Positions 22,760 through 56,097 of a stretch of 56,097 bases of DNA are shown piece by piece (the stretch's first letter is position 1; each line of letters opens with the position of its first letter). A program made the position numbers and the translations under genes. The notes beneath the pieces are model-generated. The model worked only from the letters and a program-made list of their open reading frames with translations. It was not told where the DNA came from and ran no database searches. Location of the stretch: the NCBI GenBank assembly GCA_944383275.1, contig CALWOV010000005.1:1-56097 (forward strand), written 5' to 3'. Origin of the DNA: an uncultured Clostridia bacterium (lineage in GTDB: Bacteria; Bacillota; Clostridia; Christensenellales; UBA1242).

Positions 22760-23174
22760 TGGTGGAAGCGATGGGAGTTGAACCCATGTCCAAACAAGTT
22801 TTTCACAAATTGACTACGCGTGTATTTCCTTTTTAAATTTAACTGTTAATTTTATAAAGAAACAAACATTTAACAGCGAGTTCGTTTATAGCCAATTAAT
22901 TATTGAACACTAACTAATTGCGTTTGAGATTATTTTGAGATTTGAACACCTGCCCCCAAACAAGCGTTATTCAAACCAGTTTAATTTAAGGACTTAAACC
23001 AAGTCGAACTTAGGCATAGCAAGCAGCCATTCTTGGGAAAGAATAGGTTGTTGTTTGACCTGAAGTTGTAACAGAATCTTTTTCTGCGTTTATTTTTTGT
23101 TTCGTTAGTAACGCAGACGAACCTGCGACGCGCCAATAAGCAAAGTGCTTGCTTGTCGAAACCAACACGCCCCC
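22760..23174 (-). ncRNA. ssrA: tmRNA (ssrA)
   Basis: The transfer-messenger RNA rescues stalled ribosomes by tagging the unfinished peptide. The 5' end GGGGGCG (23168-23174) pairs with the 3' segment CGCTTCC, followed by A and an encoded CCA at 22760-22762. The T-arm sequence GGGTTCAACTCCC is visible near the 3' end. The 415 bases are slightly longer than usual. The resume codon is probably GCA at 23085-23087, after TAAAC. The tag ORF then runs 25 codons to TAA (23010-23012). It begins Ala-Glu-Lys-Asp-Ser-Val and ends Pro-Arg-Met-Ala-Ala-Cys-Tyr-Ala, unlike the common Ala-Leu-Ala-Ala end. The gene sits 15 bases downstream of smpB, its protein partner, in the conserved rnr-smpB-ssrA order. Confidence 0.92.
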
Positions 23175-50707: not shown

Positions 50708-52117
<1,410 letters not shown>

Positions 52118-53846: not shown

Positions 53847-53924
53847 TTTTTTAAATAAAGGCAAACATATTAATATGATTAACAATTATTTACTTCTTTT
53901 AATATTATGTTAAGAGAGGTATAT

Positions 53925-54353
53925 ATGAGTAAAGAAATTGAAACTAAAATCAATACTTCTTTTACAGTTGATGTAAATGACACTGCTACACACAGCATTT
54001 GTTATGACAGATGTGAAAACAATAAAAATGTAGTATTAGATGCACAAAACTTATCAAGTGTTGGCAGATTTTTAACATTAAACACTACTGTTAAAAATGT
54101 TTGCCCTAACAAACAAATTGCTATTGGTATTAGATTATATGAAACCACAAATGGAAGTAAAATAATTAAAGGCCATAAAATGTTTGCAATACAACATGCT
54201 GAAAATCATTGTCAAGATATAACTTTATCTAATATTCATTTTGTTTTACCAGAAGAAATTGCTGAAACTTGTGATAAATCAAATATATGCAGTCGCAGAA
54301 CATTTGATATTGAAACAACATCACACTATATTGACCTTAGTAGTATAGAATAA
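53925..54353 (+). CDS. NVCP-motif small protein, possibly spore or surface associated
   Basis: The 142-residue protein has no signal peptide and no membrane helix. Its central part, VGRFLTLNTTVKNVCPNKQI followed by AIGIRLYE, then HAENHCQDITLSNIHFVLPE, is a pattern I associate from memory with small Clostridia proteins found near collagen-like genes; no function is known to me. It has seven cysteines, three of them near the ends of beta-like strands. An upstream ATG (53907) is less good than the ATG at 53925 with AGAGAGG. A perfect hairpin follows the stop. Confidence 0.6.
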   Translation: MSKEIETKINTSFTVDVNDTATHSICYDRCENNKNVVLDAQNLSSVGRFLTLNTTVKNVCPNKQIAIGIRLYETTNGSKIIKGHKMFAIQHAENHCQDITLSNIHFVLPEEIAETCDKSNICSRRTFDIETTSHYIDLSSIE

Positions 54354-54382: not shown

Positions 54383-54469
54383 ACATAAATGCTCATATAC
54401 CTATTATTTAATTTAAAATTTTATAATTATAACCATTATAACTATTTCATTTAATTTTAGCACACACTT

Positions 54470-54553
54470 TGGCTGGCACTTATCAATTTGAAAATTTCAA
54501 ATTGATTGCGCGCAGAATTGCGCGCTGCACATTTTATGTGCAAGTGCCAGCCA
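54470..54553. repeat. Four-way-junction (cloverleaf) palindromic element
   Basis: An outer 12-base perfect stem TGGCTGGCACTT (54470-54481) / AAGTGCCAGCCA (54542-54553) encloses three adjacent hairpins: 54482-54506 (ATCAATTTGAAA / TTTCAAATTGAT), 54508-54525 (GCGCGC-AGAATT-GCGCGC) and 54526-54542 (TGCACAT-TTT-ATGTGCA). Only a single base is left unpaired between arms. A further small palindrome GTTATT-CA-AATAAC follows at 54554-54567. There is no coding potential. Its G+C content is well above the surrounding DNA. Confidence 0.85.
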
Positions 54554-54586
54554 GTTATTCAAATAACATAATATATTTTTAGCAAT

Positions 54587-55351
54587 CTAATCATTATTAT
54601 AATAAACATCAGTATTATCTACTGCAATATCAGAATTAAGACTGTAATCAAAAGTTATTTGTGGTGGTTGAATTGAATTCAAATCTACATAATATTTTGA
54701 CGAGTCTTCTCGATTACGATAAACATTAATAGTGCTTCCTATTTCAACAAAATATTTTTTGCTAAAAGGCGCACTTCTATAAGTTGAAGTAACACTGTCG
54801 TTTATAGCTTCACACTCTATAATATTATTAACATACCTGCCATTTACTCGATATGATTTATCAGTTATAATATTAACTATCTTACATAAAACAAGTTCGC
54901 CCTGCTCTTTTGCAATTTTTGCATTTTTTTTCATTTTCAATTCTTTTTTTAATGGAAATAATGTAATTACAAAAAATAATAGACCGAACCCTGTAACCAC
55001 ACAAGGAACTAATATAGCAATTAATGAACTTTTTATAATTAATGGATTTTCTTTATGACATAAAATTGTTATTTCCTGACCAACATACATATCGGAACTC
55101 CAAAAATTTAACTCAACATCAAAATATTGTTGACCATCAAACTCGAAATCAACTTTAACAATATGTGAGGTATCTCCATCGCTGTTGGTATAAGTGTCTA
55201 AATACGAAATTGTTGCTTGCGTAGATATATAATTTTTCGAATCAACAGCATTAACTATTCCAAGAGTTAAACCAGTTAACGCACATAAACTACCAACTAT
55301 TATAAAAACCCATAAAATAACTCGTGAACTATTGCTTTCTTTAATTTTCAT
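54587..55351 (-). CDS. DUF3592-family membrane protein
   Basis: The 254-residue protein has a membrane helix at about 11-34 and another at about 109-131. Between them lies a beta-rich domain with VKVDFEFDGQQYF and DMYVGQEITILCHKENPLII, the hallmark of DUF3592. A second, DUF3592-like beta domain follows in the C-terminal part (VYRNREDSSKYYVDL). TGGAGTT precedes the ATG. Its function is unknown. Confidence 0.82.
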   Translation of the reverse strand: MKIKESNSSRVILWVFIIVGSLCALTGLTLGIVNAVDSKNYISTQATISYLDTYTNSDGDTSHIVKVDFEFDGQQYFDVELNFWSSDMYVGQEITILCHKENPLIIKSSLIAILVPCVVTGFGLLFFVITLFPLKKELKMKKNAKIAKEQGELVLCKIVNIITDKSYRVNGRYVNNIIECEAINDSVTSTYRSAPFSKKYFVEIGSTINVYRNREDSSKYYVDLNSIQPPQITFDYSLNSDIAVDNTDVYYNND

Positions 55352-55808: not shown

Positions 55809-56097
55809 ACTTGTTTTTTATTTAAAATTTTATCAATGTTTGAATAAAGAATCAATAATTAATAAAATTAATTTTATAATTTTTATATGAACAATGTGAT
55901 GTAAAATTTAAGGTGTAATAAGTATTAAGTAATAGATATTTTCAATTTTATCATTTCAGTTAAAATAAATATTTGTTTTAACTTACAAAACTTTATAAAC
56001 CTTATAAACAAAACTTACGCTAATATAAACTATGTGATGTTGTTTTGCTCACGATGTTCACAAACCAATTTGCTAAACGCAAATCCGTTGTCCCAAC
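55809..56097. other. AT-rich end of window with a partial palindromic element
   Basis: No gene recognised. From about 56030 the sequence shows CTATGTGATGTTG, a hairpin ATTTGC-TAAAC-GCAAAT (56068-56084) and GTTG-TCC-CAAC (56087-56097), and it is cut off by the window end. It may be a second copy of the element at 47443-47517. Confidence 0.35.

Follow-up and report, generated by a model that had tools for sequence, protein, structure and literature searches.

Dispersed intergenic DNA elements in a Clostridia genome share a three-hairpin cloverleaf fold but almost no sequence

What maintains an almost fully paired four-way junction in an intergenic spacer of an uncultured Clostridia bacterium: its letters, an RNA transcribed from it, or the folded DNA itself? 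The window, a 56,097 nt stretch of contig DNA, carries at 54470-54553 a complete 84-nt cloverleaf element with the same fold on either strand. Folding of positions 54450-54590 confirms the outer stem and three hairpins that the first-pass annotation had described within 84 bases, and leaves two junction bases unpaired. The 5' arm of the outer stem (TGGCTGGCACT, 54470-54480) pairs over 11 bp with the 3' arm (AGTGCCAGCCA, 54543-54553); the 12-base stem of that annotation is obtained only when T54481 pairs with A54542, which otherwise closes hairpin 3. Enclosed by this stem are hairpin 1 (54482-54506; 11 bp, 3-nt loop AAT), hairpin 2 (54508-54525; GCGCGCA/TGCGCGC, 7 bp, 4-nt loop GAAT) and hairpin 3 (54526-54542; TGCACAT/ATGTGCA, 7 bp, 3-nt loop TTT). 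The proposed start of the element holds, while its end at 54567 has to be moved back to 54553, where the junction stops; the remainder (54554-54567) is a separate, weak 5-bp hairpin outside it. As RNA, the 141-nt stretch folds with a minimum free energy of -52.4 kcal/mol (z -8.1; none of 200 shuffles as good), and as DNA the 84-nt element gives -37.0 (z -9.5), bearing out the expectation that both nucleic acids adopt the same fold. Its GC content, 44% against 30% for the window, does make it stand out as noted before.

The ORFs flanking the element are convergent: one of 148 aa upstream (53907-54353, plus strand), without a Pfam or NCBIfam match, and one of 254 aa downstream (54587-55351, minus strand), with weak, sub-cut-off similarity to DUF3592, both point their 3' ends towards it. 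Elsewhere the window contains a minus-strand, 464-aa ORF of collagen-like GPTGPTG repeats (50708-52102) and a tmRNA (22760-23174) whose predicted tag, AEKDSVTTSGQTTTYSFPRMAACYA, is unusually long.

BLAST-type searches of the same genome returned no relative of the element, only 14-25 bp chance matches, and its sequence was likewise unmatched (short chance matches at most) in 99 relatives, phages, plasmids and viral contigs; the 12-base arm, for which the first-pass annotation had advised a search, recurs neither in this genome nor in the 99 relatives. Sequence alone would thus have presented a single unconserved copy. Structure gives a different picture. The whole genome (34 contigs, 1,061,484 bases or 1.06 Mb, of a fragmented draft assembly that is 90% complete) was searched for outer stems with hairpins filling the span between their arms, and then re-scanned by sliding folding and covariance models. 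These scans identify 12 intergenic elements of one plan, 11 clean and one damaged: the window copy (C5:54470), C13:28943, C14:22861, C15:13968, C16:8340 (hairpin 1 damaged), C16:19784, C18:3909, C18:12514, C21:8905, C25:104, C27:9315 and C32:580. In every one, an outer stem about 9-14 bp long encloses exactly three hairpins, mostly of 6-14 bp with loops of 3-5 nt, and the total length is 80-105 nt. At a score of at least 45 the structure scan yields 11 matches in the genome and none in 20 Markov-shuffled genomes (21 Mb). Nine of the 11 are family members; the remaining two (C1:47434, C1:104129), at first taken for members, proved to be part of a different multicopy repeat family and were dropped, and three further members (C16:19784, C27:9315, C16:8340), found in other rounds of scanning, bring the total to 12.

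Sequence similarity within the family is slight. All-against-all BLAST of the 12 elements joins only C16:19784 with C27:9315 (70%), while by eye the C21 and C25 copies share outer stem and hairpin 1, and the C14 and C15 copies share hairpin 1; no two copies are nearly identical. The damaged copy, C16:8340, scores 45.2 bits with covariance model R2, though it lies outside the training set of that model. Whole-genome covariance-model searches were insensitive, recovering one of 12 and three of 12 known copies, and the default filters of Infernal lose the window copy, so negatives from this method carry little weight. Because a dozen dispersed elements share a fold but almost no sequence, the results suggest that what is maintained is the folded DNA itself, and not its letters or an RNA. 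Directly beside the C25 cloverleaf (C25:1-103), a 20-bp unit (actgcttgtgtttttattaa) is repeated five times in tandem.

The pairing of these elements is close to purely Watson-Crick. Their stems comprise 448 pairs, 447 of them Watson-Crick and one G-U. Since the first scanner accepted Watson-Crick pairs only, the genome was retested with a G-U-permissive scan, in which family members have 0-2 G-U pairs each (most have none) and most other matches, in real and shuffled DNA, contain about 9-37% G-U. RNA evolution is expected to leave wobble pairs, and their near absence even when the scan permits them favours a structure at the level of DNA over one of RNA. A G-T pair on one strand reads as A-C on its complement; the scarcity of G-U would therefore be explained by a structure maintained on both strands, or by copying of one arm from the other in DNA.

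The homologous stems of the pairs C16:19784/C27:9315 and C21/C25, aligned by hand, contain seven double changes and no broken pair, and between C16:19784 and C27:9315 hairpin 2 is wholly replaced with its bulge and loop size unchanged. Alignment A3 has 97.7% of its cells paired and a covariation of 1.10, against 0.20 when shuffled and at most 0.18 with slid partners, values inflated by its holding both strands of every element and being fitted to structure; A3 and R2 also still include C1:47434 and C1:104129. The covariation across the arms that the first-pass annotation called for is accordingly present, and in place of the single unconserved copy without compensatory changes that it would have counted against the element there is a family of 12 elements, with compensatory changes in two pairs of copies.

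Beyond this genome, elements of the plan are patchy. None occurs in 452 kb sampled from genomes of the same genus, a sample in which the density of the own genome would predict about five, and none at the 3' spacers of glmS, gyrB and argS in about 28 relatives each, the spacers of congeners being too divergent to align. Gain of the elements in the present lineage is therefore likely, and may have come about by insertion. Within the same family, 400 kb of one genome (G012) hold two elements, and another (G261) has one with an outer stem of 25 bp. In 80 other genomes, the 1.34 Mb of sequence surrounding gyrB gave a single match, which turned out to be a real relative, compared with about 11 per Mb in the own genome. 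GC-rich nested inverted repeats (CCCCTT...AAGGGG) also occur at this locus: L145:11895-12010, between gyrB and gyrA of a relative, which folds as an outer stem with three hairpins, and L151:5888-6120, downstream of gyrB on another Clostridia contig.

A Lachnospiraceae MAG, E07__bin56 (G307), contains at least nine dispersed, homologous copies of a cloverleaf with the same plan, its full-length matches sharing 74-82% identity with the query copy. Among them the outer stem and hairpin C hardly vary, and hairpins A and B differ between copies, with compensatory changes; double changes fall at nine pairs, one of which (columns 69-86) is poorly kept. Pairing is again dominated by Watson-Crick pairs (342, versus 8 G-U, four of the eight from an alternative RNA fold of copy L357). 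This set may resemble the family of the window genome before its sequences drifted apart.

All 12 elements lie in spacers, in a genome of which 83% is occupied by ORFs of at least 100 aa, and they occur singly. The gaps are convergent at C5, C15, C16:19784 and C18:3909, divergent at C27, and co-directional at most others. Marks of insertion were sought at the element edges: target site duplications are absent (longest edge repeat 3 nt over 12 elements), a GTAG/CGTC tag is absent from all 24 element feet, and no transposition intermediate or empty site was seen for the family. The nearby RAYT or Y1 transposase gene anticipated by the first-pass annotation did not materialize: the sole Y1 match in this 90% complete assembly carries three stops and lies on another contig. 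That match, of IS200/IS605 type, is at C2:115933-116247 (L263), near copies of a different repeat, the high-copy one described below. No integron integrase was found in the same assembly, a single tyrosine recombinase match (PF00589) reaching 39 bits against a cut-off of 265. The end of the window itself (56013-56097, also the contig end) is a copy of a high-copy repeat that is about 170 bp long, begins with AAACTATGTGATGTTGTTTTGCTC and marks the break of many contigs in the assembly; related repeats (TGTGATG...CATCACA), of which there are about 16 copies, mostly 93-100% identical, can also fold into three hairpins.

Several known systems resemble these elements in part. The single imperfect hairpin of attC, with its extrahelical bases, lies in cassette arrays beside IntI. 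The present elements differ in being four-way junctions in single dispersed copies, with no integron integrase found, and agree with attC in that structure matters, in a folded single strand with little sequence conservation; such recognition by structure is described for attC (PMC2727003). REPINs and BIMEs, which RAYT (Y1) transposases mobilise, are likewise short, intergenic, dispersed and palindromic with compensatory arm changes, and an alternative 'clover' fold has been proposed for REPINs (PMC3116915). REPINs, however, combine two conserved REP sequences with a RAYT, whereas the elements described here have three hairpins and almost no conserved sequence, and, unlike REPINs, no GTAG/CGTC tag and no intact Y1 gene. 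The REP-like character proposed earlier is thus borne out as regards palindromic, intergenic and dispersed copies, and fails as regards a conserved, many-times-repeated REP sequence (most copies cannot be aligned), the tag and the Y1 gene. MITEs share with them non-autonomy, an outer inverted repeat and dispersal; unlike MITEs, they lack target duplications, most copies have no shared terminal sequence, and no parent element was found. The DHE and RHE of organelles are dispersed, hairpin-forming intergenic elements (PMC2800124) that by this description are similar, and differ in being organellar. Dispersed intergenic palindromes are already known, and the constant three-hairpin, sequence-free plan is a variant of them: a literature search, of incomplete coverage, returned no description of a constant three-hairpin four-way junction whose sequence is essentially free within a genome.

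We propose that the elements are REPIN-like, non-autonomous DNA repeats, kept as a cloverleaf fold, which spread earlier as folded strands and are now inactive in this genome. The feature conserved would be a fully Watson-Crick cloverleaf that resembles a Holliday junction whenever its strand is single, as at a replication fork or during transfer or repair. Past spread would most likely have relied on an enzyme that recognises structure and acted on the repeats as folded single strands, broadly in the manner of REPINs and RAYTs or of attC and integron integrase, both of which offer precedents for such movement (PMC3116915; for attC/IntI, PMC2727003). The sequence would be free to drift while the arms remain complementary, which might be ensured because only well-folded copies are handled, because template-switch repair, a process able to preserve perfect stems (PMC8794818), uses one arm as the template for its partner, or both. 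The dispersed homologous copies of the Lachnospiraceae genome mean that some process must have copied the plan, and a shape-reading enzyme moving folded strands fits both this copying and the complementarity of the arms. In the own genome the family looks inactive, since its only Y1 gene is broken and the lack of near-identical copies argues against recent movement; with no sign of current activity there, we regard the proposal as evenly balanced between true and false.

Selection may instead, along the lines of the chromosome-structure site that the first-pass annotation listed, keep the junction as a resident chromosomal site for a structure-specific protein (a junction binder, resolvase, nucleoid or replication factor). 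Strict Watson-Crick pairing, the constant three-hairpin plan, symmetry between strands and the GC-rich foot of the outer stem within an AT-rich genome would all suit such a site, but absence from the three orthologous positions and from 452 kb of congeners, together with the mixed gene contexts, makes it an unlikely account. On a neutral reading the elements would be functionless palindromes, nested inverted repeats in which template switching during replication homogenises the arms (quasipalindrome correction), a process that creates as well as repairs perfect stems (PMC8794818; PMC8604942). This would account for perfect arms, missing G-U pairs and the replacement of hairpin 2 between C16:19784 and C27:9315; we nevertheless think it quite improbable, as the hairpins number always exactly three at the score used, one match in 1.34 Mb of other bacteria contrasts with about 11 per Mb here, and the dispersed Lachnospiraceae copies need a copying process.

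A structured RNA, mRNA 3' stabiliser or bidirectional terminator, although compatible with the stable RNA fold and with several copies near gene 3' ends, is disfavoured and seems very improbable given one G-U among 448 pairs and one copy between divergent genes. The window element has no T-tract after it, and so departs from the intrinsic-terminator pattern of a GC stem followed by a T run; ordinary T-tailed terminators adjoin several copies. The earlier suggestion of a small RNA found no backing, with neither an Rfam covariance match nor promoter-like sites above chance at the element. A chance fold or assembly artefact, which the fragmented draft might invite, is scarcely credible when no shuffled genome reaches the score and one plan recurs with compensatory change at 12 loci and in other genomes.

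Returning to REPIN-like repeats kept as a fold, we raise more tentatively the possibility that they exemplify a class of dispersed repeats in bacterial DNA for which the fold is the sole defining feature, a three-hairpin four-way junction recognised by shape. Recognition by shape would let copies diverge in sequence and so become invisible to repeat finders; as similarity of sequence is what searches for repeats and mobile elements depend on, a shape-only family, if real, would have been missed everywhere. The Watson-Crick-only compensatory pattern makes selection versus template-switch repair directly testable, and the Lachnospiraceae genome, with copies 74-82% identical, is a good place to seek both the enzyme and insertion polymorphism. 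A three-hairpin single-strand junction is also a natural substrate for recombination enzymes.
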